Of a DNA stretch of 64,000 bases, positions 30,423 to 54,007 are shown piece after piece; position 1 is the stretch's first letter; each line of letters starts with the position of its first letter. The translations under genes and the position numbers were made by a program. The notes under the pieces were generated by a model. That model was not told where the DNA came from. It searched no databases and saw only the letters and a program-made list of their open reading frames with translations. The stretch comes from Ruania suaedae (GTDB lineage Bacteria > Actinomycetota > Actinomycetes > Actinomycetales > Beutenbergiaceae), in assembly GCF_021049265.1 (NCBI RefSeq), contig NZ_CP088018.1:186001-250000 (forward strand), read 5' to 3'.

Positions 30423-33400
30423 ATGCGGAGGTTATCCGCGGTGGTGTTGCCCGGCGTCTTGGTGCTGGGCGTGATCGGTCCGGTGGCGGGTGCTGCGGCT
30501 GCTCCTGGTGTGGTGGATCCGTTGGATCTGGCGTTGAGTGGTCCTGATCAGCAGCGGTCGATGAGTGTGCCGGAGTCGCGGTTGGTGTTGAACCCGCAGA
30601 ATTTCTATCTTCCGGAGTCGGAGGTGGAGCAGAGTACGGGTCCGTCGATGCCGTTGGGTGCGGGGTATTACGCCAATGATGAGGCGGTGACGATGCCGGC
30701 GTTCTTCGAGTTGTTCGAGGGTGTGGCGGGTGAGCCGCCGTTGTCGGCTGATGATCCGAGCGGGATCGAGGTCGGGTTCGCTGATGAGTTCGAGGAGTTC
30801 TCGGATGAGTGGGTGCCTGAGCCGGGTCTGGATGTGAGCATCGTTGATGGGGTGGCGCATCTGTCGGTGTTGCCGGATTCGCCGGTTCCGTGGCCTGCGA
30901 TGGCGCGTGAGGTGACGGTGGACATGGACCTCACGCCGGTGCTGCGGGTGGCGTTGCCGTCGGTGAGTGGGCAGTGGGCGCTCAAGCTCAATGATGGCGC
31001 GGATGTGGACATCGAGGTTCAGCCTGGTTCTTCTGCTGGTGGTGTGCACAGTTTCGACTTGGCCTCGATCACGGGGTGGAGTGGTGAGCAGACGTTCACG
31101 ATCAAGATGTTCGCGGTCGGTGGGGATGCGCAGATCCAGATGGATAGTCTGCGGCTGCAGGGTCAGCAGGCCGGGTTTGTGGATAACTTCACCTCCGAGA
31201 CGCTGGAGTGGGATGTCGGTGCGGGTATGGGGGCTGAGGTTGCTGATGGTGCGTTGACGTTGTCGGTGCTGGCCGAGAATCAGTACGGCTATGGCGCGAT
31301 TCAGCGTGGGGTCGATGTGGATCTGGATGAGTTCCCGGTGCTGCGTCTGGCGTTGCCGAGCACGTCCGGGGATTGGGTGCTCAAGGTCAGTGCTGGTGGC
31401 GGGGCTGATATCGATCTGGAGCCGGGGTCGAATGAGTCCGGTGTGCACAGTTTCGATGTGGCGGCTGCGACCGGGTGGTCTGGTTCGACCTCGTTCACGA
31501 TCAAGCTTTTCGCTGTCGGTGGTGGCGCGCAGGTGGTTGTTGACAGTGTGCGGATGGTCTCTGCCGCGCAGGGTCAGCAGTGGGTCCATGGTGCTGAGGA
31601 GTTCGAGAACTTCTGGTCCCCGGCCTCGCTGGACTTCACCGCGACCTATCCGGGCGGAACGCTCGTGCAGGGCGCCGACACCATGGTCGGCCACGACGCG
31701 ATCGTGCGAGAGATCGACATCGAGGAGCCGGCCGGAGATGGCCAGGTACTCCGCGTGGGTGGCTCGTTCGTGGGCTCGGTCGAGGTCGACGCCGAGGCCG
31801 AGGTGGTGACCGTGGTGGGTGAACACATGCGTTACGCGGTGGCACTGCCGGGTCTGGGAGAGGTCTTTTTCTTCGAGTCGCGCGAGGAGATGCTCGCCGG
31901 TGGTCCCGCCTCGAGTGAGCCCACCTCCCGCATGGGAGTCTGGGCAGCAGCGGTCGAGCCGGGGACGTCGTCCTTGCGGGTCGGTGCCGGCTTCTCGGTG
32001 GGGGACACCGCCGAGGCCGTGGCGCGTGCGCAGCAAGCGGCGAACACTCCGGTTGCCGACGCCCGTCAGACCCTGGTCGACTTCTGGGCCGAGGCGCTGG
32101 CCGGGGTTCCGCACCCGCAGGACTTCGAGCTGCGCGCGCTGCCCGACGACGGTGGCGTGGGTGAGCAGGAAGTCCACAGTGCGTACTACCGGGCGTTCGT
32201 GGCGTTGTATTCGAACGTGTTGCCCCCGCAGCCCGAGACCGGGTACGGGTATCGCACCGTGGCCACCGGTAAGCCGTCGATGTGGAACCACGGGGCTGAC
32301 GGTGCGCGATCGGCGGCGGCGTGGGAGAGCTTCATCGGCGTGCAGCTGCTGGCCTATATCGATCCCGAGGCCGCGTGGGACTCCTTCAACGGTCTGATGT
32401 CGCTGGTCGATGAGGAAGGAACCCTGGGCGGGGAGAGCCTGCCCAGCCGTAAGGCTCAGGCCGCCTGGGTGCTGTATGCGATGACCGGGGATCAGGAGCA
32501 GCTGGCCACCAGCTATGACGCGTTGATCCGGTTGCTGCAGTGGCAGGCCGAGAACCCCCGCTGGGTCTACGGTGCCTATGACTATCCGGGTGAGCGGGAT
32601 GCCGAGTTCGTCACCTCGCTGATCGTCGACGTCGACTTCGGTATCCAGATCGCCGAGGTACTCGATCACAGCGACGACATCCCGATGCTGCAGGACCTCC
32701 GCGAGGAGCTCCTCACCGGATACCAGGAGGACTACTGGGACACCCCGAGTCAGAGTCCTCCGAGGCAGTACTACTTCCCGGGTGACCCGGAGTGCGGGTT
32801 CCGCAGTGGCTGCTACGGCAACCTGTTCCAGACCGCCATGGCACTGCACGTGGACGGCCTCGACGACGAACGCATCGACGCTCTGAAGGCGTTCGTGAGT
32901 GCGTCCTACGACCCGGCCGAGCAGTTCGCCGGATTCGCGGATGTCAAGTACACCAACATGTCCTACACCCTGTACGGCCTGCTGGAGAACGATGAGGCCG
33001 AGCAGGCGGAGACGTTGGCCAATGCGGTGCTGCGCGAGATCATCAGCAGCGGTTCCTTCGCGGAGGCCTACAACCCCTCACCCGAGGGCCCGGTACCGGT
33101 CGGCGTGCGTCCGTCCATCTTCGGGCTGGCAGCAGTGATCGACTCGGTCTGGATCAACAACGGGTACCGGATGGACCTGGGAGGACCGCACGCGGTCATC
33201 ACCCCCGGCGTCGACGGCGCGGTGCACGGTATCTCCTACCGAGGTCAGGAGCTGAACGTGGCTGCTGATGCCGCGGCCCAGGACGTGGTCTTCTCCGGTG
33301 CCGCCGTCGCGGCGACCGCGGGCTGCAACACGATCACCGGCGTCCAGATCGGTGAGACCGTCGCCCTGCCCACCGAGTGCGAGGGCGGCACCGACCCGGA

Positions 33401-33908: not shown

Positions 33909-33913
33909 GCAGA

Positions 33914-33953
33914 TCCGGCGTCGACCCGGCCGCGCGGCCGGGTCGACGCCGGA
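33914..33953 (+). terminator. Terminator hairpin after first surface protein gene
   Basis: A 40-base stretch that is a complete palindrome (arms of 18 bases around GCGC), six bases after the stop codon. GC-rich with no T-run, but long enough to act as an intrinsic terminator. The related hairpin after the second copy shares the outer arm sequence TCCGGCGTCGA. Confidence 0.8.
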
Positions 33954-34051
33954 GCCCTGAGGTGATCCGAGAGCACGCTCGCCGTAGTGCTGTACAGGTC
34001 GTTCCATCGTCGGTCGAAGCCACGCTGGTGTGGCAGGAAGGAGAGTCCCGC

Positions 34052-37000
34052 ATGCGCAGGCTCTCTGCAGTGGTGTTGCCCGGGGTGCTCGTGACGAGCC
34101 TGCTTGCTGCGGGTCCGGTGGCGGGTGCTGCGGCTGCTCCTGGTGTGGTGGATCCGTTGGATCTGGCGTTGAGTGGTCCTGATCAGCAGCGGTCGATGAG
34201 TGTGCCGGAGTCGCGGTTGGTGTTGAACCCGCAGAATTTCTATCTTCCGGAGTCGGAGGTGGAGCAGAGTACGGGTCCGTCGATGCCGTTGGGTGCGGGG
34301 TATTACGCCAATGATGAGGCGGTGACGATGCCGGCGTTCTTCGAGTTGTTCGAGGGTGTGGCGGGTGAGCCGCCGTTGTCGGCTGATGATCCGAGCGGGA
34401 TCGAGGTCGGGTTCGCTGATGAGTTCGAGGAGTTCTCGGATGAGTGGGTGCCTGAGCCGGGTCTGGATGTGAGCATCGTTGATGGGGTGGCGCATCTGTC
34501 GGTGTTGCCGGATTCGCCGGTTCCGTGGCCTGCGATGGCGCGTGAGGTGACGGTGGACATGGACCTCACGCCGGTGCTGCGGGTGGCGTTGCCGTCGGTG
34601 AGTGGGCAGTGGGCGCTCAAGCTCAATGATGGCGCGGATGTGGACATCGAGGTTCAGCCTGGTTCTTCTGCTGGTGGTGTGCACAGTTTCGACTTGGCCT
34701 CGATCACGGGGTGGAGTGGTGAGCAGACGTTCACGATCAAGATGTTCGCGGTCGGTGGGGATGCGCAGATCCAGATGGATAGTCTGCGGCTGCAGGGTCA
34801 GCAGGCCGGGTTTGTGGATAACTTCACCTCCGAGACGCTGGAGTGGGATGTCGGTGCGGGTATGGGGGCTGAGGTTGCTGATGGTGCGTTGACGTTGTCG
34901 GTGCTGGCCGAGAATCAGTACGGCTATGGCGCGATTCAGCGTGGGGTCGATGTGGATCTGGATGAGTTCCCGGTGCTGCGTCTGGCGTTGCCGAGCACGT
35001 CCGGGGATTGGGCGCTCAAGGTCAGTGCTGGTGGCGGGGCTGATATCGATCTGGAGCCGGGGTCGAATGAGTCCGGTGTGCACAGTTTCGATGTGGCGGC
35101 TGCGACCGGGTGGTCTGGTTCGACCTCGTTCACGATCAAGCTTTTCGCTGTCGGTGGTGGCGCGCAGGTGGTTGTTGACAGTGTGCGGATGGTCTCTGCC
35201 GCGCAGGGTCAGCAGTGGGTCCATGGTGCTGAGGAGTTCGAGAACTTCTGGTCCCCGGCCTCGCTGGACTTCACCGCGACCTATCCGGGCGGAACGCTCG
35301 TGCAGGGCGCCGACACCATGGTCGGCCACGACGCGATCGTGCGAGAGATCGACATCGAGCGCGACGCTGCTGTGGATGACGTGCTGCGGGTGGCAGGCAG
35401 CTTCGTCGGAGAGGTCGGTGTCGATACCGACGCCGGGGTACTCACTGTCGAGGGCGAGTACTTCACCTACGCCGTCGCAGGGCTTGCAGACGTCTTCTTC
35501 TTCGAGTCGCGCGAGGAGATGCTCGCCGGTGGTCCCGCCTCGAGTGAGCCCACCTCCCGCATGGGAGTCTGGGCAGCAGCGGTGCCCACATCGGCCACTC
35601 AGGTGCGCATCGGCGCCGGCTTCTCCGTCGACGACGGGAACGAGGCGGCGGCCCGCGCGGTGATGGCCGCGGGCACGCCCGTGGCGGATGCCCGCGCCGA
35701 CCTGATCGACTTCTGGACGGGCGCGCTGGCCGGGGTTCCGCACCCGCGGGACTTCTCCCTGCTCGGGGTCTCCGATGATCGCGGACTCACCGACGAGCAG
35801 GTTCGCAGCGCGTACTACCGGGCGTTCGTGGCGTTGTATTCGAACGTGTTGCCCCCGCAGCCCGAGACCGGGTACGGGTATCGCACCGTGGCCACCGGTA
35901 AGCCGTCGATGTGGAACCACGGGGCTGACGGTGCGCGATCGGCGGCGGCGTGGGAGAGCTTCATCGGCGTGCAGCTGCTGGCCTATATCGATCCCGAGGC
36001 CGCGTGGGACTCCTTCAACGGTCTGATGTCGCTGGTCGATGAGGAAGGAACCCTGGGCGGGGAGAGCCTGCCCAGCCGTAAGGCTCAGGCCGCCTGGGTG
36101 CTGTATGCGATGACCGGGGATCAGGAGCAGCTGGCCACCAGCTATGACGCGTTGATCCGGTTGCTGCAGTGGCAGGCCGAGAACCCCCGGTGGATCTACG
36201 GTGCCTACGATCACCCCGGCGAGCGGGACTCCGAGTTCGTCACCTCGCTGATCGTCGACGTCGACTTCGGTATCCAGATCGCCGAGGTACTCGATCACAG
36301 CGACGACATCCCGATGCTGCAGGACCTCCGCGAGGAGCTCCTCACCGGATACCAGGACGACTTCTGGGCCGCGCCCGGTGAGCACCCGGCACGGTGGTAC
36401 ATCCCGGGTGACCCGCAGTGCACGATCCTCGGGTCCTGCTTCGGCGATGAACTGCACGATCTGCAGACGTTGAGCTCGATGCACCTGGACGGTCTCGACG
36501 ACGAGCGTCGAGCCACCCTCGAGTCGTTCTTCGACTCGGTCTACCGGCCGCAGGCGCAGCTCGCCGGCTTCGCCGGAGTGAAGTACACGAGTCTGTCGTT
36601 CACCGCGTACGCGCTCTTCGACCACGGCCGGGGAGAGGCGGCCCAGACGCTGACGAGCACCCTGCTGCGTGACATCGTCGCCAGCGGGTCCTTCGCGGAG
36701 GCCTACAACCTCTCCGACGACGGACCCGTCCCGATGGGGGTGCGACCCTCGATCTTCGGGCTCGCCTCCGTCATCGACGCGGTCTGGCTCAACAACGGGT
36801 ACCGGATGGACCTGGGAGAGCCCCACGCGTTGCTGGCCCCCGGGGTCGACGGCGGCCTGACCGGCATCTCCTACCGAGGTCAGGAGCTGAACGTGGCTGC
36901 GGATGCCGCGGCCCAGGACGTGGTCTTCTCCGGTGCCGCCGTCGCGGCGACCGCGGGCTGCAACACGATCACTGATGTCCAGATCAGTGAGACCGTCGCC

Positions 37001-37276
37001 CTGCCCACCGCCTGCGAGGGCGACACCGACCCGGACCCGACCAACCCGACGAACCCGGCCGACCCGACCGATCCGGACCCGACCGACCCCGGGACCGGCC
37101 CCGCCCCGGAGGAGGACGTGTCCGAGCCACCCGCTCCCGGCGCCGACGGCGATCGCGACGGTCTGGCGGACACGGGAGTGAGTGGTGTCCACCTAATCCT
37201 GGTGGCCCTGAGCGCACTGCTCCTCGGGGTCCTGGTACTCCTCGCTCGTCACCGGGCACTCGCCGCTCGCCGCTGA
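34052..37276 (+). CDS. Large cell-wall-anchored putative glycan-active protein, copy 2
   Basis: A 1074-residue paralogue of the preceding gene with the same order: signal peptide (MRRLSAVVLPGVLVTSLLAAGPVAGAAAA), N-terminal block, two beta-sandwich modules, beta domain, helical putative catalytic domain, Pro/Thr/Asp linker, LADTG sorting signal (1038-1042), membrane helix and basic end. It lacks the extra Ig-like domain of copy 1. Residues about 20-435 are nearly identical to copy 1, then identity falls and rises in blocks; the part after about residue 770 (DDFWAAPGEHPARWYIPGDPQCT) is clearly diverged, which may give a different substrate preference. AGGAAGGAGAG precedes the ATG at 34052. No CAACGTTG operator is found in its own 143-base upstream gap, so it either depends on readthrough or has a different promoter. 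Confidence 0.85.
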   Translation: MRRLSAVVLPGVLVTSLLAAGPVAGAAAAPGVVDPLDLALSGPDQQRSMSVPESRLVLNPQNFYLPESEVEQSTGPSMPLGAGYYANDEAVTMPAFFELFEGVAGEPPLSADDPSGIEVGFADEFEEFSDEWVPEPGLDVSIVDGVAHLSVLPDSPVPWPAMAREVTVDMDLTPVLRVALPSVSGQWALKLNDGADVDIEVQPGSSAGGVHSFDLASITGWSGEQTFTIKMFAVGGDAQIQMDSLRLQGQQAGFVDNFTSETLEWDVGAGMGAEVADGALTLSVLAENQYGYGAIQRGVDVDLDEFPVLRLALPSTSGDWALKVSAGGGADIDLEPGSNESGVHSFDVAAATGWSGSTSFTIKLFAVGGGAQVVVDSVRMVSAAQGQQWVHGAEEFENFWSPASLDFTATYPGGTLVQGADTMVGHDAIVREIDIERDAAVDDVLRVAGSFVGEVGVDTDAGVLTVEGEYFTYAVAGLADVFFFESREEMLAGGPASSEPTSRMGVWAAAVPTSATQVRIGAGFSVDDGNEAAARAVMAAGTPVADARADLIDFWTGALAGVPHPRDFSLLGVSDDRGLTDEQVRSAYYRAFVALYSNVLPPQPETGYGYRTVATGKPSMWNHGADGARSAAAWESFIGVQLLAYIDPEAAWDSFNGLMSLVDEEGTLGGESLPSRKAQAAWVLYAMTGDQEQLATSYDALIRLLQWQAENPRWIYGAYDHPGERDSEFVTSLIVDVDFGIQIAEVLDHSDDIPMLQDLREELLTGYQDDFWAAPGEHPARWYIPGDPQCTILGSCFGDELHDLQTLSSMHLDGLDDERRATLESFFDSVYRPQAQLAGFAGVKYTSLSFTAYALFDHGRGEAAQTLTSTLLRDIVASGSFAEAYNLSDDGPVPMGVRPSIFGLASVIDAVWLNNGYRMDLGEPHALLAPGVDGGLTGISYRGQELNVAADAAAQDVVFSGAAVAATAGCNTITDVQISETVALPTACEGDTDPDPTNPTNPADPTDPDPTDPGTGPAPEEDVSEPPAPGADGDRDGLADTGVSGVHLILVALSALLLGVLVLLARHRALAARR
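34113..35359 (+). repeat. Long direct repeat, copy 2 (within second surface protein gene)
   Basis: Partner of 30478-31724 at an offset of 3635 bases with one visible mismatch (C at 35013). It covers the end of the signal peptide, the N-terminal block and both beta-sandwich modules, and stops abruptly at the codons after EIDIE. Confidence 0.93.
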
Positions 37277-37282
37277 CGCAGT

Positions 37283-37322
37283 TCCGGCGTCGATCCCGCC
37301 TCCCGGCCGGATCGACGCCGGA
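37283..37322. terminator. Bidirectional terminator between second surface gene and esterase
   Basis: Arms of 14 bases (37283-37296 and 37309-37322) around a 12-base loop, placed between two convergent stop codons at 37276 and 37331. It can serve both transcripts. Confidence 0.75.
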
Positions 37323-37330
37323 GCGCGAGG

Positions 37331-38302
37331 TCAGAGTCTGGCGCGCAGCCACTCCACCTGGCGGACCCAGTGGGTGGTGCCGCCACCTTCGTGCCCGTTG
37401 TAGGGGTAGACGGCCATCTCCTTGTCGGTGCTGGTCAGCCGGTGGTAGGCGGCGAAGACCGTCGAGGGCAGCGAGATCTCATCCATCAGGGCGACCGACA
37501 TCAGGACCGGAGCCCGCACGGAGCTCGCGAAGGAGACGCCGTCGAGGTAGGACAGCGTCCGCAGCACCTGGTCGCTGGAGCCGCGGTGGACCGACAGGTA
37601 CTGGCGTAGCTCGCCGGCTGCGTCGGGAGAGGCCAGCTGCAGATAGCGCTCGAGATGACACAGGAAGGGCACGTCGGGGAGCGCGGCGCGAACCAGGGGC
37701 GAGAGCCCCGCCGCGGCGAGGGCGACCCCGCCGCCCTGGCTGGTACCGGTGACGGCGATCCGGTCCGGATCGACGACGTCCAAGTGGGCCGCCGCTTCGA
37801 CGAGCAGGACGGCGTCGGTGTAGAGCCGCCGGTAATAGCTCGTGCTCGGGTCGGCGATGCCTCGGGACAGGAAGCCACCAGCTGCTGGACCGCTCCCGTG
37901 CGGGTCTGCGGTGGCGCCGGGCCCGGCGTTCGGCCACGCACTGCCCTGCCCGCGGGTGTCCATGACGAGGTGGGCGAACCCACTGGCGGACCAGCCCAGC
38001 CGATCGCTGGGCAGACCCCGACCGCCTCCGTAGCCGATGAACTCGACCACCAACGGGAACGGTCCGGCCCCGGCCGGGTGGAGCAACCAGGCCTTGATCG
38101 AGTCGCCGGCGAACCCCGAGAAGGTGACGTCCCAGGCCCGCAGCTCGGTGAGCGGGGTCTGGGCGGGCGACAGGATCGTGCGGTCGCTGAGCGCTCGTGC
38201 TTCCTGCAGCGTCGAGGACCAGAACTGCGTGAAGTCGGTCGGGCGAGTGACCTCGGGACGATACGTCCAGAGCTCGTCCAGTGGCAGGTCGGTGTACGGC
38301 AC
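37331..38302 (-). CDS. CE7-type acetyl esterase (acetylxylan esterase / cephalosporin-C deacetylase family)
   Basis: A 323-residue alpha/beta hydrolase of carbohydrate esterase family 7, which removes acetyl groups from sugars or short oligosaccharides in the cytoplasm. The opening VPYTDLPLDELWTYRPEVTRPTDFTQFWSSTL is characteristic, the nucleophile is in GTSQGGG, DTRGQGSAWPN is the family RGQ motif, and the acid and histidine appear in ALMDEISLPSTVFAAYH and NGHEGGG. Size matches the family. GTG at 38302 begins five bases after the GH38 stop and excludes a long upstream frame that lies across the mannosidase. Last gene of the minus-strand operon, it probably deacetylates imported oligosaccharides to make them accessible to the mannosidases. 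Confidence 0.88.
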   Translation of the reverse strand: MPYTDLPLDELWTYRPEVTRPTDFTQFWSSTLQEARALSDRTILSPAQTPLTELRAWDVTFSGFAGDSIKAWLLHPAGAGPFPLVVEFIGYGGGRGLPSDRLGWSASGFAHLVMDTRGQGSAWPNAGPGATADPHGSGPAAGGFLSRGIADPSTSYYRRLYTDAVLLVEAAAHLDVVDPDRIAVTGTSQGGGVALAAAGLSPLVRAALPDVPFLCHLERYLQLASPDAAGELRQYLSVHRGSSDQVLRTLSYLDGVSFASSVRAPVLMSVALMDEISLPSTVFAAYHRLTSTDKEMAVYPYNGHEGGGTTHWVRQVEWLRARL

Positions 38303-38307
38303 GGTCG

Positions 38308-40668
38308 CTAACTGCCGATGCGGAAGGTCTCCGCGCCGTCGGCCAGAGCGCTGACGTGCTCCAGCGCGTCGGTGACACTCATCTCGCCCCAGGTGACGTG
38401 GAACCGGAACTCGTGGAAGCCGCTGACATCGGCGCGGAAGTTTGTCTCCCAGGTCGTGTTCACGGCCCACGCGGCGAGCTCACGCTGGTTGGCCTCCTGG
38501 TCCGGGCCCGTATGCAACCGGATCGCCCGGTGGTCGATGCCACCGAGTGCGATCAACGGGGTGTCCGGTGTGGCGACCGCCACCGCATACCCTCCGGCCT
38601 CCTGGACGAAACCCCGCTGGAGGAGCAGGTAGTCCTGGAGCGTGCCGTGGATCTGATCGATCGCCGGGCGCAGCAGCGCACCGGTCTTCTCCACCCACAG
38701 CGTCCCCTCGCCCTCCGGTCCGAAGGGTAGGGGCAGGAGAAGGTTCTCGGCCGCCCAGCCGCCTGCGGCCCGGAACCGGACCGAGACGTTCAGCAGCGGC
38801 TCGATCATCGAGCACTCCACCTCGATCAGGAAGTGCTCGAAGCCGGGCAGGTCCAGCTGGAGCTCGGCTCTGCCGGCGATCGGGCCGCGGGCGGTCACCC
38901 GGGCGCCGATGACGTCGGCCACCGTGACCTGCGCCTGGGCCGGAGTCCTGTTTCGCCCGGATGTCATCCGGGGGCCCACCGGGTCGGATCCGCTCTGCCA
39001 TCGCGAGTGCACGGCGGCGAACGGTGCCCGGCCGGAGCCACGCAGGATGCTGCGCCCGGTGGCGGGGTCGGTGACCTCGACGATTCCTCGCGCGGGATCG
39101 AGGACGAGGCGTGCGCGTGCCCCCTCCAGGATGTGCTCGTCTGCGGTATCGATGCTGACGTCGGCGACCCGGTCCACACCGGCGATCCGGTCGGCGCGCC
39201 GGGGCTCTTCCCGCACCTCCACGACCGCCTCACTTCCCGGGCCCAGCTCGAGCTCGACGAGGAGCTCGACCCCGCGGGGGACGGTGCGGCTCTGAGAGCG
39301 CAGGACTGCGCCGTCGTGGTAGGCGACGGGCTCCGTTCCGTGCCGGGTGAAGAGCCAGTCGTCGATGTGCAGCCGCAGCATTCGCAGGGTGGACGAGGAC
39401 GTGTTCACGGCCCGGTAGCGCAGCGGTCGTGCTCGTGGCGGCAGGAACGTCTCGTCCGCTGCCGCGCGAGCACGGGTCAGTGCCGCCGTCGCCGCCGCAT
39501 GTGCCTGTGCCGCCACGGAGGTCTTCGCCACGTCCTGCGCGACCACGTCCGTCAACCACGGCATGAGCACCGAGTGGGAGTGGCCCCAGGTGTGCTCGGC
39601 GTAGAGCGCGAGCTGCTGGCGGGCCTCGGCGGTCTCGCTCGAGATGTCGGCGCCGGTGACGGCGGCCAGAGCCTCGGAGCGTTCCAGACGACGCTGTGCG
39701 TCGCGGGCGATCCTCAGCTCGCGGGGCGTGGAGGCGACGCCATCCGCCCACCAGTCGGTCCAGTCGCCACGTTCGGTGGGGAGGTCGCCGAAGGCGGGCT
39801 CGCGCCGGAGCGCGTCGAAGAACTCGTCGGCGGTGGAGAGCCGGACCTGCACACCGTCCGGATGCTGTGCGTTCCAGTCCCGGACGGCCTCGGTCAACGC
39901 GACGTCCGGGGGAGCGTTGTCGGAGGCGGCACCGGAGATGAGCGCCGGCACGACGGAGTACGGATAGTCGCGGCCGGCGAGCTCCTCGAGGTAGTCGGTC
40001 ATGCGATCCTGGCGCATCTGTGCCGAGGCGGAGGCGCCGTCCCGGTCGTGGGCGTCCCGGATCGTGTAGCTCATCGCGCCCCGGGGGCAGAACCCGAGGT
40101 CGTTGCCGAGCTGGTAGTGCGGCGCCACCCAGGCGAGCACCCGGCCGCCGGTCGGCCCCTCCCACCAGAACGCACGCTGGTCGCGGCCGTCCGGTGCGAG
40201 CCCGTGATGGGTGTGGATGCTCGAGAAGAGCTGCCGGACGCCGTGCCGGTCCAGGATATCGGCGTAACCCCACGAGTACCCGTTGATATCGGCCGTCAGA
40301 GCGGTGCGCAGCGGCCGCGCGTGCGCGGCGAACCAGTCGGTGGCGCGCGCGGTGACCGTGTCCAGGGTGGTGGCGTCGATGATCTCGGTCAGGTTGAGGT
40401 AGCTGGCCGAGCCGCCTACCTGCCCGGTGCGCAGCAGCGCGGCCAGTTCGTCGATCTCCTCGGACCCGGCGGTACCCAGGAACTGTTCCAGCTGCCAGAA
40501 GTTCTCCATCTGCCAGCGGTAGGTCGGCGACGACCGGCACGCCCGCACCACCTCCCGCAGGAAGTCCGCATGGGCACGTGCGACCTCCGGTCGAGGAGAG
40601 GTGTAGCCCAGATCGGTGTGCGAATGCGGGATCAGGTGAACGGTGAGCGGGCGTGCGGTCGGATGCAT
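38308..40668 (-). CDS. GH38-type alpha-mannosidase
   Basis: A 786-residue cytoplasmic glycoside hydrolase related to family 38 alpha-mannosidases. The zinc-binding N-terminal motif HLIPHSHTDLGYT (H17 and D19) is clear, the conserved TALTADINGYSWGYADIL carries the expected aspartate nucleophile, and HTWGHSHSVLMPW supplies a later histidine ligand. The remainder forms the helical bundle and beta-sandwich domains usual for the family. GAGAGG lies before the ATG at 40668. It is 20 bases downstream of the oxidoreductase stop and transcribed with the aldolase and esterase genes. A role in cleaving alpha-mannosides fits the adjacent mannose-6-phosphate isomerase domain, but some GH38-like proteins act on other sugars. 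Confidence 0.88.
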   Translation of the reverse strand: MHPTARPLTVHLIPHSHTDLGYTSPRPEVARAHADFLREVVRACRSSPTYRWQMENFWQLEQFLGTAGSEEIDELAALLRTGQVGGSASYLNLTEIIDATTLDTVTARATDWFAAHARPLRTALTADINGYSWGYADILDRHGVRQLFSSIHTHHGLAPDGRDQRAFWWEGPTGGRVLAWVAPHYQLGNDLGFCPRGAMSYTIRDAHDRDGASASAQMRQDRMTDYLEELAGRDYPYSVVPALISGAASDNAPPDVALTEAVRDWNAQHPDGVQVRLSTADEFFDALRREPAFGDLPTERGDWTDWWADGVASTPRELRIARDAQRRLERSEALAAVTGADISSETAEARQQLALYAEHTWGHSHSVLMPWLTDVVAQDVAKTSVAAQAHAAATAALTRARAAADETFLPPRARPLRYRAVNTSSSTLRMLRLHIDDWLFTRHGTEPVAYHDGAVLRSQSRTVPRGVELLVELELGPGSEAVVEVREEPRRADRIAGVDRVADVSIDTADEHILEGARARLVLDPARGIVEVTDPATGRSILRGSGRAPFAAVHSRWQSGSDPVGPRMTSGRNRTPAQAQVTVADVIGARVTARGPIAGRAELQLDLPGFEHFLIEVECSMIEPLLNVSVRFRAAGGWAAENLLLPLPFGPEGEGTLWVEKTGALLRPAIDQIHGTLQDYLLLQRGFVQEAGGYAVAVATPDTPLIALGGIDHRAIRLHTGPDQEANQRELAAWAVNTTWETNFRADVSGFHEFRFHVTWGEMSVTDALEHVSALADGAETFRIGS

Positions 40669-42697: not shown

Positions 42698-42792
42698 GTG
42701 CGGTCCTTGTCCATCGTTGGGGGATCGCGGCTGAACGCCACGATGTCGATAGGTGCGATATGGCCAGCCGTGTGCCAGAGTAGACCTGCGAA

Positions 42793-42802
42793 ACAACGTT
42801 GT
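42793..42802. promoter_or_regulatory. LacI-type operator between divergent units
   Basis: ACAACGTTGT, the common core of the locus, is placed 24 bases before the kinase-isomerase ATG and 96 bases before the aldolase GTG. One copy can therefore control both directions. The palindrome is 10 bases perfect, shorter than the one at 45992. Confidence 0.75.
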
Positions 42803-45930: not shown

Positions 45931-45991
45931 CGTTCCGCCGCCGTTGACGACGAGGTGGTTGTCAAGATGTGGGGAAGCGGGTAACGTACCG

Positions 45992-46009
45992 CGAAACAAC
46001 GTTGTTTCG
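45992..46009 (+). promoter_or_regulatory. LacI-type operator of the transporter operon
   Basis: CGAAACAACGTTGTTTCG is an 18-base perfect palindrome, the longest version of the motif in the window. It lies just before the permease gene and close to the LacI stop codon, so it controls the transporter-hydrolase operon and not the regulator itself. Confidence 0.85.
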
Positions 46010-46034
46010 AGAGGGATGGGCGGTACGTCTCACC

Positions 46035-47001: not shown

Positions 47002-47952
47002 ATGACTGCCACCACGACCAGGAATGCCTCCACGCCTGCTGCCGCCGCCCCTGCATCACCGGTGCCGCGCCGTCCCGGACGGCTGCGACGCCTCCTGCGG
47101 GGGGACCCCTTCGTCGGGGTCAGTACGGTCGCCGTCACGGTGTACGCCCTGGCCTGCGTGATCCCGCTGTGGATCATCCTGGCCTCCTCGCTGACGGCGG
47201 AGCGCACGCTGGTCCAGACCGGATTCAGCCTGTGGCCCTCGGACTTCTCGCTGGAGGCCTACAAGGCCCTGTTCTCCGGGAACGACACCCTCGTCAACGC
47301 CTACTTCGCCACGCTGGTCATTACGGTGGTCGGTACGGCGGGCGCAGTGATCGCCACGCTCGGGATGGGATGGGTGATCTCGCGCCGGACGAGCCTGGCC
47401 CGGTGGTTAATGGTGGTGGTCTACATCCCCATGCTGTTCAACGGTGGCCTCGTCCCGCTGTACATCCTGGTCACTCAGGTGCTGCAGCTGCGCAACACCT
47501 ACTGGGCGGTGATCCTGCCCCTCCTGGTCTCACCGTTCCTGGTGTTCGTGGCCATGGCCTTCTTCCGCGACATCCCCGAGGCCGTGCTCGAGTCCGCGCG
47601 GATCGACGGCGCCAACGAGCTCCGGGCGTTCTTCTCGATCGTGCTCCCGATCGCGACTCCGATCGTGGCGGTGATCGCGCTCTTCTACGCCGTGGCCTAT
47701 TGGAATGAATGGTTCTTCCCACTGCTGTTCATCAATGACCCAGATCTACGACCACTTCAACTGCTCCTGCAGAACATGATCGGCAACCTCAATGCAGCAC
47801 AGGCGCTGCAGCCGACCTCGGGCGTCTCCGCGCCCGTCTACCAACTGAGGATGGCCCTGACCGTGGTCACCATCGGTCCGATCATCCTCGCCTACCCCTT
47901 CATCCAGCGCTTCTTCGTCACCGGGCTCACGCTCGGTGCGACCAAGGGCTGA
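47002..47952 (+). CDS. Carbohydrate ABC transporter permease (CUT1, YtcP-like)
   Basis: A 316-residue permease and partner of the preceding gene, starting one base after its stop. Six helices start at VAVTVYALACVIPLWIILASSL; the EAA loop reads PEAVLESARIDGANELRAFFSIVLPIATPIVAVIALF. It ends with FFVTGLTLGATKG, the common C-terminus of this branch. The pair forms the channel for the oligosaccharide delivered by the lipoprotein at 47981. The ATPase is again not encoded here. Confidence 0.92.
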   Translation: MTATTTRNASTPAAAAPASPVPRRPGRLRRLLRGDPFVGVSTVAVTVYALACVIPLWIILASSLTAERTLVQTGFSLWPSDFSLEAYKALFSGNDTLVNAYFATLVITVVGTAGAVIATLGMGWVISRRTSLARWLMVVVYIPMLFNGGLVPLYILVTQVLQLRNTYWAVILPLLVSPFLVFVAMAFFRDIPEAVLESARIDGANELRAFFSIVLPIATPIVAVIALFYAVAYWNEWFFPLLFINDPDLRPLQLLLQNMIGNLNAAQALQPTSGVSAPVYQLRMALTVVTIGPIILAYPFIQRFFVTGLTLGATKG

Positions 47953-47980
47953 TGGTCCTCCCCCAGAGATTGGAACCACC

Positions 47981-49522
47981 GTGGCACACTTCTCGACCCC
48001 GTCCGTCAACCGTCGCCGAATGCTGCAGGGCTCGCTCGCACTGGGCGGTGCCGGTCTGCTGGCTGCGCTGAGCGGCTGCCAGTCCGGCGGCGGCAGCAGC
48101 AATGGATCGGCGGCCACCACGCTCAAGTCGCTGCTGCCGGGCGACGTCCCCCAGCGGTGGACCGAGGTGCTGGCGGCCGTCAACACCAAGCTCGAGGCCG
48201 ACACCGGCCTGCGGCTGGACCCCGAGTTCATCTCGTGGACGAACTACGCCGAGCAGGAGATGCTCAAGTTCACGACCCAGGAGCCGTTCGACTCGGCCCT
48301 CGAGGCGACGTGGTTGAACCTGGCCCAGCTCCTGTCCGACGGCGCCCTCGCGGACATGACCGAACTCTGGGAGAGCGGCCGGTTCGAGAACCTGAACGCC
48401 ACGATCGATGAGCGCATGGTGGAGTACGCGAAGTACCAAGGGAGTCTCTACACGATTCCGCTGGTCGCCAACTTCACCAGCCCGCCCGGGTTCGTGGTCC
48501 GTCAGGATCTGGCCGACAAGTACGGCATCGGCGAGATCACCGACTACGAGGCGCTCGAGAAGTTCCTCTACGACGTCAAGCAGAAGGACCCGGACCTCAT
48601 CCCGTTCGGCCTCGATGCCGGGTATGTCAACAACACGGTGGTCCCGAACCCCGTCGCCTTGTTCAACGCCCAGTCGTGGGACAACCCGACCAAGTGCGTC
48701 CAGCTCCTGGGCACGCACTTCGATGGTTCCGATCTGACGCCGGTGCCGTTCTGGGACCAGCCGGACATCCTCGAATCGCTCGACCGGATGCGGCAGTACT
48801 ACCTCGACGGAATCCTGAACGAGGATGCGCTCACACTCGACATGAGCGCCGTCCGGAGCCTGTTCGCCCAGGGACGCTACGCCTCCACCACCGCCGGCGC
48901 GGACGGCCTGACCAGTCCCACCTTCGGCCCCGTCGCCGACAACGTCGAGGGCGCTGCGATCGCGCAGGTGTTCCCGTTCACGGCCGGCCTGGACGCCGTC
49001 ATCCCGGCCACCTTCCAGGCCGCGAACAACATGGTCGTGCCGGCCTACGCCGAGACGCTGGAGCAGGTCTTCGAGATGATGGACTGGCTCTCCGTCCAGG
49101 AGAACCATGACCTGCTCTCCTACGGCATCGAAGGAGAGGACTGGGAGGCGACGGGCGAGCACTCCTACGAGCAGATCAGCGGTTACGCATTCCCCGCCTT
49201 CGCGATGTCGTGGCGCACGCCGCTCGAGCGGGGGCTCGCCGGTGCGGTCGAGAGCGACAGCGCGTGGGTGGAGTGGACCCGGGACTTCGAGAACTTCACG
49301 GCCGACCACCTCGCGGGCTTCTACTTCGACTCCTCCACGGTGGCCTCGGAGCAGGCACAGGTGGGCGCCGTCTTCGACGAGTACGTCCTTCCGCTCTATG
49401 CGGGCGTCAAGGACGTCCAGTCGGGGCTGGACGAGGCACGCAGCGCGATGGAGGACGCCGGCTACGAGACGGTCGTCGAGGAGTACCGCCGGCAGGCGGG
49501 CGAGTACCTCGCCGGCTCCTGA
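47981..49522 (+). CDS. Extracellular solute-binding lipoprotein with Tat-type signal
   Basis: A 513-residue binding protein for oligosaccharides, of the LplA-like cluster. The signal VAHFSTPSVNRRRMLQGSLALGGAGLLAALSGC combines a twin-arginine motif (NRRRM) with a lipobox (LSGC), so it is probably exported folded by Tat and then lipidated. The mature part has LEADTGLRLDPEFISWTNYAEQEM and, near residue 190, TDYEALEKFLYDVKQKDPDLIPFGLDAG, typical of these proteins. The start GTG at 47981 fits the signal length; the longer frame overlaps the upstream permease. It is followed 45 bases later by the GH2 gene. Confidence 0.9.
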   Translation: MAHFSTPSVNRRRMLQGSLALGGAGLLAALSGCQSGGGSSNGSAATTLKSLLPGDVPQRWTEVLAAVNTKLEADTGLRLDPEFISWTNYAEQEMLKFTTQEPFDSALEATWLNLAQLLSDGALADMTELWESGRFENLNATIDERMVEYAKYQGSLYTIPLVANFTSPPGFVVRQDLADKYGIGEITDYEALEKFLYDVKQKDPDLIPFGLDAGYVNNTVVPNPVALFNAQSWDNPTKCVQLLGTHFDGSDLTPVPFWDQPDILESLDRMRQYYLDGILNEDALTLDMSAVRSLFAQGRYASTTAGADGLTSPTFGPVADNVEGAAIAQVFPFTAGLDAVIPATFQAANNMVVPAYAETLEQVFEMMDWLSVQENHDLLSYGIEGEDWEATGEHSYEQISGYAFPAFAMSWRTPLERGLAGAVESDSAWVEWTRDFENFTADHLAGFYFDSSTVASEQAQVGAVFDEYVLPLYAGVKDVQSGLDEARSAMEDAGYETVVEEYRRQAGEYLAGS

Positions 49523-49567
49523 TCACGGCGGCACCGACCTACGCACCCACCCACACGACAGGACATG

Positions 49568-51511
49568 ATGCACAGCACCATCTGGCTCGACGGCGAGGAC
49601 TGGACACTCCTCGGCTGGCGTCGCAACGACTGGGAGCTGGCGAGAACGCCGGCTGCGGGCAAGGTGACCAACCCCGACGTGGCTCCGGTGAGGATGCAGG
49701 TTCCGGGCTCGGTGCGTGGTGCGCTGGTCGGTGCCGGCGTGATCGCGGATCCGACCGTCGGACTGCAGTCGCGGGACGCGGAGTGGGTCGAGCATCGCGA
49801 CTGGGAGATCCGCCGCCGGCTCCCCGAGGGCGGGCTCGAGGGCGCCGGTCAGCTGTGGCTGACCTGTGCCGAGCTCGACTACGCCGGTGCGGTCCTCCTC
49901 GGCGACAGGGAGGTCGGACGCTTCCGCGGCAGCTTCACCCCGCACGAGTTCGACCTCACCGAGGCCTACCGAGCCGGTGAGCGGACGCTGCGGATCATCC
50001 TCACCGCAGCACCGGACGGTCTGGCGCAGAACGGGTGGACCTCCCGGATCCGGGCGTTCAAGCCGCGCTTCAGCTACGGCTGGGACTGGACCCCCCGCAT
50101 GGTCTCGGCCGGGATCCCCGGCCGGGTCCGGTTGGAGCAACGATCATCCGGCGCTCCCCGGCTGTCCGTCAGCGCCCGGGGCGACGTCGACCTCGAACGC
50201 GACACTGCGGTCCTGGAACTGTCGGCCCGTGCCGACGCTCCCGGGAGTCCAGACGACCCCGGTCTCACCGTCGAGGTTCTCCTCGACGGTGAGACCGTCG
50301 GGGTGGGACCGGCCCCTGGGCTCGACATCCGGGTCGACGTGCCGGTCGAGTACTGGCACCCGGCCGGCCGCGGTGGGCAACCGCTGTACGAGTGCCGGGT
50401 GCGCCTGCTCGGCCAGGACGGGACGCTCCTCGAAGAGGTCGTGCGGCGCCTCGGATTCCGGCACGTCTCCTGGTCCCTGCCGGAGGGTGCCCCGGCCGGG
50501 GCCGACACCTGGCTGTGCTCGGTGAACGGCGAACCGGTGTTCCTCGCCGGCGTCAACTGGGTGCCGATCCGCCCCGACTACGCCGACGTCACCGAGGCCG
50601 ACTACCGGCTCCGGCTCCAGCACTACCGGGACCTGGGCTTCGCGATGATCCGGGTCTGGGGCGGAGCAGGACTCGAGCGTCCGGTCTTCTACGACCTGTG
50701 CGACGAGCTGGGGCTGCTGGTCTGGCAGGAGTTCCCGCTGTGCTCCTCCGGTCTCGACAACGAACCTCCGAGCGACCCCGAGTTCGTCACCGAGCTGGTG
50801 GCGATCGCCGGCAGCTACGTGCAGCGGCTGGGCCACCACGCGTGCCTGGCATTGTGGGGCGGAGGCAACGAGCTCACCCAGGTCGACGAACCCGCCGTCC
50901 CGGGGACGCCGTTGACCAGTGATCACCCCACTCTCGCCGCCCTCCGTCAGGTGGTCGCCGCCGGCGACCCGAGCCGCAGGTTCGTCGCGACCTCACCGAC
51001 CGGACCACGCTTCGAGGCCGACGCCGCCGAGTTCGGGCTCGGCCTCCACCACGACGTCCACGGACCGTGGGAGTTCGACGGCACCGTCGATCAGTGGCAG
51101 CAGTACTGGGACGCCGACGATGCGCTGATGCGCTCCGAGGTGGGCGTCGTCGGTGCCTCCTCGATGGACCTGCTGGACCGGCACGGGCTGCTCGAGGCGA
51201 GCTCGGGAGCAGAGCTGCGGCAGCTGTGGACCCACTCCTCGGGGTGGTGGCTGGCCCCCCTCGACACCTGGCTGGCGCGCGGGCACCAGCTCGACGAACT
51301 GCCGCAATGGGTCGAGCAGAGCCGGCAGCGCCAGGCGCAGATGCTCGCCTACGCGGCACGGCGCAGCAAGGACCGGTTCCCGGAGTGCACCGGATTCTTC
51401 GTCTGGCTCGGCCACGACACCTTCCCCTGCGCGGTCAGCCTGTCGCTGCTCGACCACGACGGGGAACCGAAACCGGCCGCGTTGGCTCTCGGTGAGGTCT
51501 TCACCGTCTGA
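49568..51511 (+). CDS. GH2 beta-mannosidase
   Basis: A 647-residue intracellular glycoside hydrolase family 2 enzyme removing beta-linked mannose. The N-terminal sugar-binding domain (WLDGEDWTLLGWRRNDW and GSFTPHEFDLTEAY), an immunoglobulin-like domain and the TIM barrel are present in order. The acid/base is E435 in LWGGGNELTQ, and the nucleophile is E524 in MRSEVGVVG, as in family beta-mannosidases (WxxxNE and SEFG). It has FSYGWDWTPRMVSAGIPG, a stretch typical of beta-mannosidases. ATG at 49565 is also possible, but AGGA is better spaced for 49568. It is in the transport operon, so it works on imported oligosaccharides. Confidence 0.92.
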   Translation: MHSTIWLDGEDWTLLGWRRNDWELARTPAAGKVTNPDVAPVRMQVPGSVRGALVGAGVIADPTVGLQSRDAEWVEHRDWEIRRRLPEGGLEGAGQLWLTCAELDYAGAVLLGDREVGRFRGSFTPHEFDLTEAYRAGERTLRIILTAAPDGLAQNGWTSRIRAFKPRFSYGWDWTPRMVSAGIPGRVRLEQRSSGAPRLSVSARGDVDLERDTAVLELSARADAPGSPDDPGLTVEVLLDGETVGVGPAPGLDIRVDVPVEYWHPAGRGGQPLYECRVRLLGQDGTLLEEVVRRLGFRHVSWSLPEGAPAGADTWLCSVNGEPVFLAGVNWVPIRPDYADVTEADYRLRLQHYRDLGFAMIRVWGGAGLERPVFYDLCDELGLLVWQEFPLCSSGLDNEPPSDPEFVTELVAIAGSYVQRLGHHACLALWGGGNELTQVDEPAVPGTPLTSDHPTLAALRQVVAAGDPSRRFVATSPTGPRFEADAAEFGLGLHHDVHGPWEFDGTVDQWQQYWDADDALMRSEVGVVGASSMDLLDRHGLLEASSGAELRQLWTHSSGWWLAPLDTWLARGHQLDELPQWVEQSRQRQAQMLAYAARRSKDRFPECTGFFVWLGHDTFPCAVSLSLLDHDGEPKPAALALGEVFTV

Positions 51512-51571
51512 GCGCGCTACCCGCCCGAGGGGCGACGGATTCGGCATGACCGCAACAAGGAGAGATCGTCC

Positions 51572-54007
51572 ATGGACCCCACACCGGCCGGGCCCCCGGC
51601 TGCCACTGCGCTGCGCCAGAGCGGGCCCGAGCAGCAACGCTCGCTGAGCCTGCCCAGCAGCCGCATCGTGCTCAATCCGCAGAACTTCTTCGCCCAGTCG
51701 AGCGAGGTCGAGCAGAACTGTGCGCCGTCGCTGCCGCTCGGACTCGGCTACTTCGCCCACGATCAGGCGCTGGTGCTCTCGCGCTTCCTGACGCTGTGGG
51801 CGCCACCGGTCGCGCCTGCCACGCCGGCACCGGCGCCCGAAAGCCTCGACGTCGGACAGTGGCGAGCAGGCCCCGACATCGGGCTGCGCGCCGAGGGCGG
51901 CGCGCTCGAGGCTGCGCTCACGGCCCAGGACGCGCACGCCGGATCGATCCGGCGACGCCTCCGGTTCGATCCCGCGCGCCCGGTCCTGCGGGTGAGTATC
52001 GGCTCGGTGCACGGGCAGTGGGCGTTGCGGGTGCGCGATCGTGCGGGCCGGGCCATCACCGTGCAGGACGGCGCCGCCACGGTCGGCCTGCACCGCTACG
52101 ACCTCGCCTCACTCCTCGGCGACCCGCCGGGCGAGGAACTCGAGCTGTCGTTGGAACTCCTCAGTGCCGGGGCCTCGGTCCGCGTCGAGGAGATGGCCCT
52201 GCTCCCAGCCCGCGACGACACGCTCGCGGGGGCGCACCGCTTCACCACGGACTGGTCCCCGGGCGGCCTGGGTTTCACGGCGCAGTACCAGGGCGGGGGA
52301 GACCTGCACGGTCACGACGTCTTCGTCGACGAGCACAGCGTCCTGCGGGAGGTGACGATCGATGAGCCGCTGGGTGAGGAGCGCGCCCTGGTGGTCGCCG
52401 GGGAGTACGTCGGTGACGTCGAGCTCGATCGGGCGCTCGGCGTGCTGCGGATCCGGGCGCCCTACGCCCACCTGGCGGTGACCGTTCCGGACGGAGCGCA
52501 GATCCGCTACCACCCGGACGAGGCCTCGCTGCAGAGCGGCGCCGCCGGCTCGCCCGAACCGCTGTCGCGGACCGGGGTGTGGGCGCTCACCCTCGCACCG
52601 GGCACCCGGTCCTTCCGTCTCGGCTGCGGTTTCTCACCGACCGACGCCGAGGCGGCGCAGCGGACGGCCACCGCGGCCGCCGAGCACGGCGCGCAGGAGC
52701 GGTCCACGCACTGGCACGCCGTCTGGGACGACGTCCTCGCCCGGGTCCCGCACCCGCGCTCGTTCGAGCTGCTCGGTCTGGCCGACCACGAGGCGGTGAC
52801 GGCGCCGGACGTGCGGGCGGCCTACTACCGCGCCTTCCTCGGGCTGTACGCGAACGTCCTGCCGCCGCAGCCGGAGAGCGGATACCACTATCCCACCGTG
52901 GCCACGGGTAAAGGGTCGATGTGGAACTACGGGGCTCCGGGTGCTCGCACGGCCGCTGCGTGGGAGACCTTCCTGGCGATCCAGTTCCTCGCGTACCTGG
53001 ATCCGGACATCGCCTGGGCCTCGTTCCACGGTCTGATGGCGCTCGTGGTCGAGGACGGTTCGCTCGCCGGTGAAGGGCTGCCGAGCCGCAAGGCGCAGAC
53101 GGCGTGGATCCTGTTCTCACTCACCGGCGACCGGGAGGCTCTCGCGGGCGGCTACCCGCAGCTGCGACGACTGGTTCGATGGCAGGCCCAGCATCCGCGC
53201 TGGGTCTACGGCGACTACGACCACGCCGGAGAACAGGATGCGGAGTTCCTCACATCGGCGGTGATCGATCTCGGGTTCATCCGTCAGATCGCCGCCGAAC
53301 TCGGTGAGGACGGCGACCTCGCCATCTACGAGGAGCTGCGTGAGGCGTTGCTCGTCGACTATGCCGCTCGCTTCTTCCGAGGTGACGAGCGTGCGGCGGT
53401 CCAGCACTGGTTCCCGGCAGACCCTGGTTGCGGCCCGCGTGGAGGCTGTGAGGGACTCGGGTTGCAGGTCGCGATGGGGCTGGCGGTCCACGGCCTGGCG
53501 GACTGGCAGCGGACGGCCCTGCTCGCCCGGTTCGACACCCAGTTCGACGCCCAGGATCAGCTCGGGGGGTTCGATGTGGTCAAGCACTCCAACCTCGGGT
53601 ACACGGTGGACGGGCTGATGCTCAGCGGCCGATGGGACCAGGCGCAGACGCTGTCGAATCTCGCCCTCCGGGACGTGGTGCGCAGCGGTTCGTTCGCCGA
53701 GGTCTACGACCGCGGGCCGCAGGGGCCGCGACCGGGCGGCGTCCGGCCCTCGATCTTCGGTATGACGCAGGTCATCGACTCGGTGTGGCTGAACAACGGG
53801 TTCCGCATGGACCGTGGTGTTCCGGAGGTGATCGCAGGTCCGGGCGTGCGCGGCGGGCTCGACGGCGTCCGGTTGCGCTCGCGGACCCTGCAGGTCGAGG
53901 TGGACACGCCGCGCGGTACCGCACGGCTCACCGACACCGCCACCGGCCAACGGCAGGAGCTCACCCTCGGCCCGCAGGCCAGTCTTCCCCTGATCGCCGA
54001 CGAGTAG
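51572..54007 (+). CDS. Cytoplasmic paralogue of the surface proteins (putative glycosidase)
   Basis: An 811-residue protein without signal peptide or anchor, clearly homologous to the two surface proteins. Shared landmarks in order: LRQSGPEQQRSLSLPSSRIVLNPQNFF, SEVEQ, YFAHDQALVLSRFL, one beta-sandwich module (about 90-210; the surface proteins have two), GAHRFTTDWSPGGLGFTAQY, and the helical domain with YYRAFLGLYANVLPPQPES, SMWNYGAPGARTAAAWETF, EGLPSRKAQTAWILF and VRPSIFGMTQVIDSVWLNNGFRMD. The repeated helix pairs look like an (alpha/alpha)6 barrel. No catalytic residues can be assigned with certainty; invariant Asp/Glu in VVEDGSLAGEGLPSRK and DYDHAGEQDAEF are candidates. GGAGAG precedes the ATG. 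It follows the GH2 gene by 60 bases and probably finishes degradation inside the cell. Confidence 0.85.
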   Translation: MDPTPAGPPAATALRQSGPEQQRSLSLPSSRIVLNPQNFFAQSSEVEQNCAPSLPLGLGYFAHDQALVLSRFLTLWAPPVAPATPAPAPESLDVGQWRAGPDIGLRAEGGALEAALTAQDAHAGSIRRRLRFDPARPVLRVSIGSVHGQWALRVRDRAGRAITVQDGAATVGLHRYDLASLLGDPPGEELELSLELLSAGASVRVEEMALLPARDDTLAGAHRFTTDWSPGGLGFTAQYQGGGDLHGHDVFVDEHSVLREVTIDEPLGEERALVVAGEYVGDVELDRALGVLRIRAPYAHLAVTVPDGAQIRYHPDEASLQSGAAGSPEPLSRTGVWALTLAPGTRSFRLGCGFSPTDAEAAQRTATAAAEHGAQERSTHWHAVWDDVLARVPHPRSFELLGLADHEAVTAPDVRAAYYRAFLGLYANVLPPQPESGYHYPTVATGKGSMWNYGAPGARTAAAWETFLAIQFLAYLDPDIAWASFHGLMALVVEDGSLAGEGLPSRKAQTAWILFSLTGDREALAGGYPQLRRLVRWQAQHPRWVYGDYDHAGEQDAEFLTSAVIDLGFIRQIAAELGEDGDLAIYEELREALLVDYAARFFRGDERAAVQHWFPADPGCGPRGGCEGLGLQVAMGLAVHGLADWQRTALLARFDTQFDAQDQLGGFDVVKHSNLGYTVDGLMLSGRWDQAQTLSNLALRDVVRSGSFAEVYDRGPQGPRPGGVRPSIFGMTQVIDSVWLNNGFRMDRGVPEVIAGPGVRGGLDGVRLRSRTLQVEVDTPRGTARLTDTATGQRQELTLGPQASLPLIADE

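Follow-up and report, generated by a model that had tools for sequence, protein, structure and literature searches.

Few enzyme families are known to digest fungal mannans, N-glycans and microbial polysaccharides. A locus of Ruania suaedae, located within a 64,000-nucleotide stretch of contig NZ_CP088018.1 (positions 186,001 to 250,000, forward strand; hereafter the window), encodes three large related proteins among predicted mannosidases, which raises the question of whether these proteins represent a further glycoside hydrolase (GH) family and on which sugar they act. They were designated A (30423..33908, plus strand; an open frame of 1161 amino acids, aa), B (34052..37276, plus strand; 1074 aa) and C (51572..54007, plus strand; 811 aa). 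Together with their relatives they probably constitute a mannoside-directed candidate new GH family acting by inversion.

Three related proteins and the named families

An earlier note on this DNA listed seven motifs (NPQNF, SEVEQ, YYRAF, LPPQPE, SMWN, LPSRKAQ and VRPSIFG) as common to the three proteins, and each of them was found in A, B and C. Proteins A and B are identical in 858 of 1034 residues (83%), A and C in 300 of 688 within the main segment (E = 0.0, single comparison), and C is approximately 44% identical to both of the others. This kinship is far above chance. Protein A is predicted to consist of a signal-like N-terminus, two beta-sandwich repeats resembling carbohydrate-binding modules (CBM), a further beta-sandwich, an (alpha/alpha)6 domain assigned by homology with C, and an anchor-like tail with the motif LADTG; B, its tandem paralogue, has the same architecture, while C has one CBM-like repeat and neither signal nor anchor. 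Purine stretches resembling ribosome-binding sites precede the starts of A and B.

The relationship between A and B was analyzed in 50-codon windows in three genomes of the genus. In each of them the DNA identity of the two genes is 93-100% across about 400 codons at the beginning of the mature part and again in codons 551-700, and drops to 60-83% in codons 401-550 and 61-71% in codons 751-850. Orthologues of the window genome and the other two genomes share 74-93% DNA identity over the first 950 codons. The identical mosaic in all three genomes suggests ongoing gene conversion that spares two blocks, and these blocks may confer different specificities. The pair is a gene-converted tandem duplication, so the three-member family of the earlier note stands as regards kinship and is better described as two lineages, A/B and C. 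Other actinobacteria likewise carry the family gene as tandem pairs (L035, L046 and L054).

Export signals distinguish the two lineages. The N-termini of A and B are hydrophobic (best 15-residue Kyte-Doolittle means of 2.6 and 2.3, respectively, compared with 0.26 for C), and both proteins carry a C-terminal LADTG followed by a hydrophobic stretch and a basic tail, a feature that C lacks. The LADTG motif presumably suits class E sortases, and two sortase-family proteins above the Pfam cut-off are encoded in the genome. The anchor profile TIGR01167 matched A with 12.1 bits, below its cut-off of 15.9, and no match to it was listed for B. Proteins A and B are probably displayed at the cell surface, as predicted from their export and anchor-like signals. 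The earlier description of two exported, wall-anchored proteins and one cytoplasmic protein agrees with the export and anchor-like signals of A and B and their absence from C; with the profile score of A below cut-off, anchoring is the putative part of it. A hydrophobic signal-like N-terminus was also present in 14 of 16 other members checked, the exceptions being L062 and L063 in the frames taken, whose starts are uncertain. In a quick tree of 39 rows with SH-aLRT support only, A, B and C form one group (support 100) with C beside A and B, which suggests that the cytoplasmic copy originated in this lineage or does not occur outside it.

Comparison with family profiles (Pfam 2025 and NCBIfam 2026) assigned no name to the three proteins. 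In Pfam, C reached 16.0 of the 24.5 bits required for PF17389, the six-hairpin catalytic domain of GH78, over 98 residues. PF17389 was absent for A and B at E ≤ 1; A gave a sub-threshold MalQ_N match towards its tail and B had no Pfam match of any kind. NCBIfam contained nothing relevant for A, B or C, and the 11 families listed for 39 relatives were anchor, sorting, Ig-like and binding modules or chance-level names (best E 0.0014). A search of PDB sequences with C yielded no significant match (best E 0.12). The earlier statement that the proteins could not be matched to a named GH family was thus upheld in these databases. MalQ_N, EndglycodaseB1 and XpsH were rejected as names for the window proteins, their matches being sub-threshold or chance-level and covering short or tail stretches.

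The search was extended to 35 members, scanned singly at E ≤ 0.1. Neither GH92 (PF07971/PF17678) nor the Pfam families for GH94, GH63, GH65, GH15, GH37 and GH125 were matched, the latter six being absent from the 10 families listed; one member matched the MGH1-like family PF22422 at 3.9e-4. No description of the family was recognised among the papers listed in searches of open-access literature, and two haloarchaeal family genes are filed as "hypothetical protein". The fold of GH99 presumably differs from that of the present family. GH195, a recent mannan family of endo-alpha-1,3-mannanases that works with GH92, was rejected as a name since it is outlined as GH99-like and distantly related to GH99 (PMC13063451).

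Predicted fold and candidate catalytic residues

An AlphaFold2 model of C, obtained from an alignment of 39 sequences (mean pLDDT 91.4, pTM 0.90), comprises N-terminal beta-sandwich domains, twelve main helices from residue 411 to 741, with an extra very short helix at 663-666, and a small C-terminal beta domain. Foldseek comparison with the PDB returned GH94, GH63 (YgjK), GH116 (ExoMA2), GH121, GH92, GH78, GH15, GH65 and similar enzymes among the matches listed. The 50 best matches are glycosidases, phosphorylases and similar proteins, each of which we take to have the (alpha/alpha)6 fold (some family labels are likewise assumed); they had E-values of 1e-12 to 1e-8 (best 1.3e-12), TM-scores mostly of 0.3-0.5 and 9-14% identity. 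The top match is a phosphorylase, and no single family dominates. Structures 4zle, 3w7s, 8ic6 and 6m5a, presumably of GH94, GH63, GH116 and GH121, are among the top matches (E 1.3e-12 to 8.4e-11), but their TM-scores are only 0.33-0.47, their identity is 9-12%, and the family has no Pfam match to any of these four. The model thus places C in the six-hairpin (alpha/alpha)6 superfamily but in no one family by fold, and the barrel of repeated helices anticipated in the earlier note is recovered together with a beta-sandwich. GH92 enzymes presumably share this combination of beta-sandwich and (alpha/alpha)6 barrel; the present family differs from them in the lack of Pfam matches and in a weak profile match (hhalign against five GH92 rows: E 3.6e-4, probability 37%).

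Several acidic residues are conserved within the barrel. E501, D566 and E710 of C are invariant in all 39 aligned sequences, D556 is present in 38 of them, and position 465 is always acidic. In the model E710 falls in the loop that joins helices 11 and 12, and D556 in the one that joins helices 5 and 6; inverting enzymes of this fold presumably carry base and acid, respectively, in these loops. E501 precedes helix 4 within the signature GE-LPSRKAQ. E501, D556 and E710 are therefore candidate catalytic residues. The tandem repeat region of A was modelled separately (pLDDT 91, pTM 0.59). Its first Foldseek matches were large multi-domain proteins at low TM-score, and the best target-normalised TM-score among the 50 best matches was 0.60, to CBM29-2; for this reason the region is called CBM-like and no more.

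The surrounding locus and its counterpart in a sister species

The genes surrounding the family members conform to the earlier account of a locus with alpha- and beta-mannosidases, an esterase and transport functions. Downstream of B, four genes are located on the minus strand. They encode an esterase of the AXE1 (acetyl xylan esterase) type (37331..38470; PF05448, 3.4e-97), whose relatives align from residue 55-56 so that its real start is probably internal, a GH38 alpha-mannosidase-like protein without a hydrophobic N-terminus (38308..40668; PF01074, 6.6e-24), a Gfo/Idh/MocA oxidoreductase (40689..41858; PF01408, 1.7e-17) and a DeoC/LacD-type aldolase (41855..42796; PF01791, 1.1e-29). On the plus strand they are followed by genes for a PfkB-family kinase fused to a half resembling type-I phosphomannose isomerase (42827..44818; PF00294, 8e-26), a LacI-family regulator (44932..45930; PF00356, 1.8e-13, and PF13377, 2.4e-27), two ABC permeases (45969-47000 and 47002-47952; PF00528), a solute-binding protein with DUF3502 (47936..49522) and a GH2 protein nearest to beta-mannosidases (49565..51511; 5n6u, 2e-46), again without a hydrophobic N-terminus. 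Gene C and a gene for a 482-aa protein (54020..55468, plus strand) complete the row.

The locus as a whole points to mannose as the sugar gained. The binding protein, in which a lipobox-like LSGC was recognised by eye, has 5swa, 5mlt and 5suo as its nearest solved structures, which we take to be NgtS, the N-glycan importer of pneumococcus. For the second half of the kinase fusion Pfam gives only Cupin_2 below cut-off; in a database of 38 loci this half is 29-33% identical (E 5e-4 to 2e-3) to genes of L035, L037, L039 and L043, of which that of L035 is a Pfam phosphomannose isomerase and the others are its relatives. The oxidoreductase and aldolase are not needed for simple mannose use, and the sugar may be modified. 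This gene pair (40689-42796) is 90-96% conserved in three sister genomes.

An operator-like palindrome connects the parts of the locus. The sequence ACAACGTTGT occurs three times in the genome of 3,557,440 bases, each time in this locus (the reversed pattern, used as a control, is absent): 50-60 bp before the start of A, where it is accompanied by a second copy with one mismatch (30364..30384), between the divergent aldolase and kinase genes (42793..42802), and at the head of the operon comprising the transporter, GH2, C and the 482-aa protein (45996..46005). The last site falls within the longest frame of the first permease, 27 bases in; the true start of this gene may lie downstream. With one mismatch allowed, four sites were found in the window compared with 0.36 expected. 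The exact palindrome is present at the same three places in two further genomes, G017 and G019, in the stretches searched there. The locus looks like one regulon, and the LacI-family protein encoded at 44932 is the obvious putative reader of the palindrome.

A comparison with a sister species (G020), in which no family member was found, offers the best single argument concerning the role of C. Its stretch retains, in the same order, genes for serine dehydratase (81% identity), AXE1 (79%), GH38 (78%), the kinase fusion (83%), LacI (86%) and an FAD/Fe-S oxidase (89%), together with the oxidoreductase, the aldolase and four copies of the palindrome. Between the LacI and FAD genes, this species encodes a different binding protein, permeases that are 27-33% identical in part, a GH2 protein of 41% identity, a GH92 protein and a GH43-like protein. 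The GH92 gene lies directly 3′ of the GH2 gene, as C does in the window, and its product has no signal peptide detectable by eye. C and this GH92 protein are positional counterparts, which suggests an alpha-mannosidase-like role for C; the argument is a single case and does not prove the bond. At the place of A and B, G020 has a pectate-lyase-like beta-helix protein (L086:6411-7841) with the palindrome at the 5′ end of its gene.

The 482-aa protein has only a weak GH65C match and is perhaps another glycosidase. Its gene lies 3′ of C in all three family-carrying genomes of the genus, the orthologues in G017 and G019 being 80-81% identical. Relatives also occur in two genomes without the family, G011 (62%) and G022 (46-49%), near ABC permeases. 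A comparison of this single sequence with the profile of the A, B and C family detected no relationship (probability 0.3%, E 0.21). The FAD/Fe-S oxidase gene (55462-58389) adjoins the family in the window, and a counterpart does so on a Halomontanus plasmid (L066:18539-21598; 27% identity); this is possibly a coincidence, as the gene is kept in G020 without the family.

Relatives elsewhere and alternative readings

The family is rare and patchy. Among 24 genomes from the bacterial family it was identified in three, the window's own included and all in the window's genus, and among 297 from the order in seven, again with the window's own and with one weak case (G266). A class-wide profile search detected it in four of 296 genomes, where three matches were weak and partial and only that in the window's own genome was near full length. 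Scanning of 84,980 species (one genome each) with two peptide patterns, which misses members lacking both, revealed 37 further loci, several of them in metagenome bins. They belong to Actinomycetota, Bacteroides nordii, Alistipes, Rikenellaceae, Marinilabiliaceae, Chloroflexi, Verrucomicrobia, Lentisphaerae and Planctomycetes. Rarobacter faecitabidus and Micrococcales KH10 each contain four family loci, and two plasmids of the haloarchaeon Halomontanus carry relatives of 34% identity.

Mannose-related genes accompany about half of these loci. Within flanks of up to 10 kb, or less where a contig ends, GH130 was present at 13 loci, GH92 at seven and GH38 at two, so that at least one of them accompanies 19 of the 37; a relative of phosphomannose isomerase was found at five. 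For 35 of the loci, random placement of each genome's own number of such genes predicts 0.42 loci with GH130, 1.33 with GH92 and 0.26 with GH38, compared with 13, seven and two observed. The 28 genomes containing these 35 loci encode GH92 in 21 cases, GH38 in 19 and GH130 in 26, compared with three, four and four, respectively, of 14 control genomes; of 32 genomes searched for GH76, 17 contain it. A family member of Actinopolymorpha rutila (L036) adjoins a transporter whose components are 63%, 59% and 39% identical to the two permeases and the binding protein of the window.

Several observations weigh against a mannoside-directed family controlled as one regulon. None of GH38, GH92 and GH130 was present in the flanks of 18 of the 37 loci, some of which ended early at contig ends; L029-L032 lack all three within 10 kb, and two of these, L029 and L030 (Actinopolymorpha), are the rows nearest to the window clade by tree path. 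The window genome itself was found to contain neither GH130 nor GH76. The neighbours that do occur give split evidence on linkage, GH130 acting on beta-mannosides and GH92 and GH38 on alpha-mannosides. On the Halomontanus plasmids the family gene lies among GH28-type and beta-helix genes, accompanied in one case by sulfatase, GH78 and "mannonate dehydratase" genes, and a locus of Phycisphaerae has GH123 and fucosidase-like neighbours. The enrichment was calculated against random placement, while the loci are related, and the control genomes were unrelated and not taxon-matched. A looser 12-base version of the palindrome with up to two mismatches occurred four times in the window compared with 1.73 expected, a number reached in nine of 100 shuffles, and A and C were among the rows of the tree marked for unusual amino-acid composition.

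The abundance of GH130 permits a different reading of the substrate, according to which the family would cleave beta-1,2-mannosides, as an endo- or exo-beta-1,2-mannanase or a beta-1,2-mannobiose-releasing enzyme, and the products would pass to phosphorolysis by GH130 or hydrolysis by GH2. In L062-L065 (Verrucomicrobia/PVC/Lentisphaerae) the family gene is immediately followed by a GH130 gene, and at three or more of these loci an MFS-like gene comes next (that of L062 has a Pfam match below cut-off). The L062 GH130 protein, the only one tested from this group, is nearest to Uhgb_MS (6.5e-155), which forms beta-1,2-mannobiose, and Lin0857; both are beta-1,2-mannobiose enzymes. The GH2 neighbour in the window is beta-mannosidase-like, and the beta-1,2-glucanases GH144, GH162 and GH192-194, considered here as a model only, have the (alpha/alpha)6 fold (PMC12102758). 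However, the window genome lacks GH130, and in the sister species C is replaced by GH92. In addition, for the GH130 protein of L035, the only actinobacterial one tested, the beta-1,2 enzymes are the best matches only within residues 312-426 of 427, and other GH130-type structures match it nearly as well. We consider this reading rather unlikely.

It is improbable that these proteins form a divergent GH78 branch removing alpha-L-rhamnose or a related 6-deoxy sugar. Among catalytic families, PF17389 alone was matched by a large share of the members (19 of 35 at E ≤ 0.1, best 3.3e-7); the best match corresponds to about 30 bits by our own arithmetic, so that this member probably exceeds the Pfam cut-off and a few other distant ones may do so. 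A PDB search with a profile of 35 relatives found GH78 structure 6i60 at E 0.001 and one chance match, and one Halomontanus locus contains a GH78 gene. The likeness to GH78 (PF17389; 6i60, 3cih), located around barrel helices 4-7 and accompanied by the same superfamily fold, shows that the family is remotely akin to the GH78 catalytic barrel. It differs in that the window proteins remain below the Pfam cut-off, A and B having no match, in that GH78 structures took only places 25 and 32 in the Foldseek ranking, after GH94, GH63, GH116, GH121 and GH92, and in that the neighbours in the window serve mannose, not rhamnose. Still more doubtful is a mannoside phosphorylase with a GH94/GH65-like mechanism. 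In its favour, many of the first 30 Foldseek matches, including the top one, are phosphorylases, and GH130, the partner, consists largely of phosphorylases. Against it, signal-like N-termini are present in A, B and 14 of the 16 relatives checked, and phosphate is scarce outside cells; moreover, an invariant acid occupies position 710, where hydrolases presumably carry the base.

Proposed pathway and further neighbours

An unnamed mannoside-directed (alpha/alpha)6 family, with A and B at the surface and C in the cytoplasm, is the reading that we prefer. A and B, held at the surface by sortase, would cut or trim a polymer outside the cell, and the NgtS-like binding protein and the two permeases would import the oligosaccharides. 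C may then finish these in the cytoplasm together with the GH38 protein, the beta-mannosidase-like GH2 enzyme and possibly the 482-aa protein; the esterase would remove acetyl groups and the fusion of PfkB and phosphomannose isomerase would feed mannose into glycolysis. The LacI-family protein would control the three transcription units through the one palindrome. Single-step inversion is the likeliest mechanism, with E710 as the putative base and D556 or E501 as the acid. The likeliest bond is an alpha-mannoside, as a GH92 protein without an obvious signal peptide stands at the place of C in the sister species. We lean slightly towards this proposal as a whole. The earlier note was largely right in substance, and neither of the two results that it named as refuting, a significant match to an established GH family of known activity or a predicted fold lacking a catalytic pocket, was obtained.

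We regard as evenly poised the broader proposition that these proteins are the founding set of a new mannoside-specific (alpha/alpha)6 family, extending over at least five bacterial phyla and haloarchaea, interchangeable with GH92 in one locus, divided between surface and cytoplasm, and including PVC members that make the substrate of a beta-1,2-mannobiose phosphorylase. If true, it would fill an annotation gap for Rarobacter, Cellulosimicrobium, gut-type Bacteroides, Alistipes and PVC bacteria and offer new tools for mannan analysis; the first two genera are presumably yeast-lytic. With GH92 in the place of C under the same kind of regulator, the sister species offers a naturally occurring experiment on the interchangeability of glycosidases.

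The ABC transporter and anchor-like tails found here presumably replace the outer-membrane system of Bacteroides, whose alpha-mannan loci we take to have GH92, GH38 and GH76 as partners. The yeast alpha-mannan loci of Bacteroides have a mannose glycan and a GH130 partner, in that case beta-1,2-mannosidases, in common with the loci described here (PMC4599007), and the part of that article considered describes no partner like the present family.

Other genes adjoin the family at individual loci. A frame of 874-1418 residues is located next to the family gene in L043 (13168-16251), L037, L046, L054 and L057; in L043 and L057 it combines F5/8-type (CBM32-like) domains with a long N-terminal portion that matched nothing in Pfam. 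In Bacteroides nordii the GH92 gene beside the family member (L056:12738-14923) is split over two frames in the assembly. In Marinilabiliaceae the family gene adjoins one for a 733-aa protein without a Pfam match (L034:12777-14975), within a row that also encodes GH92, DUF2961 and GxGYxYP proteins.

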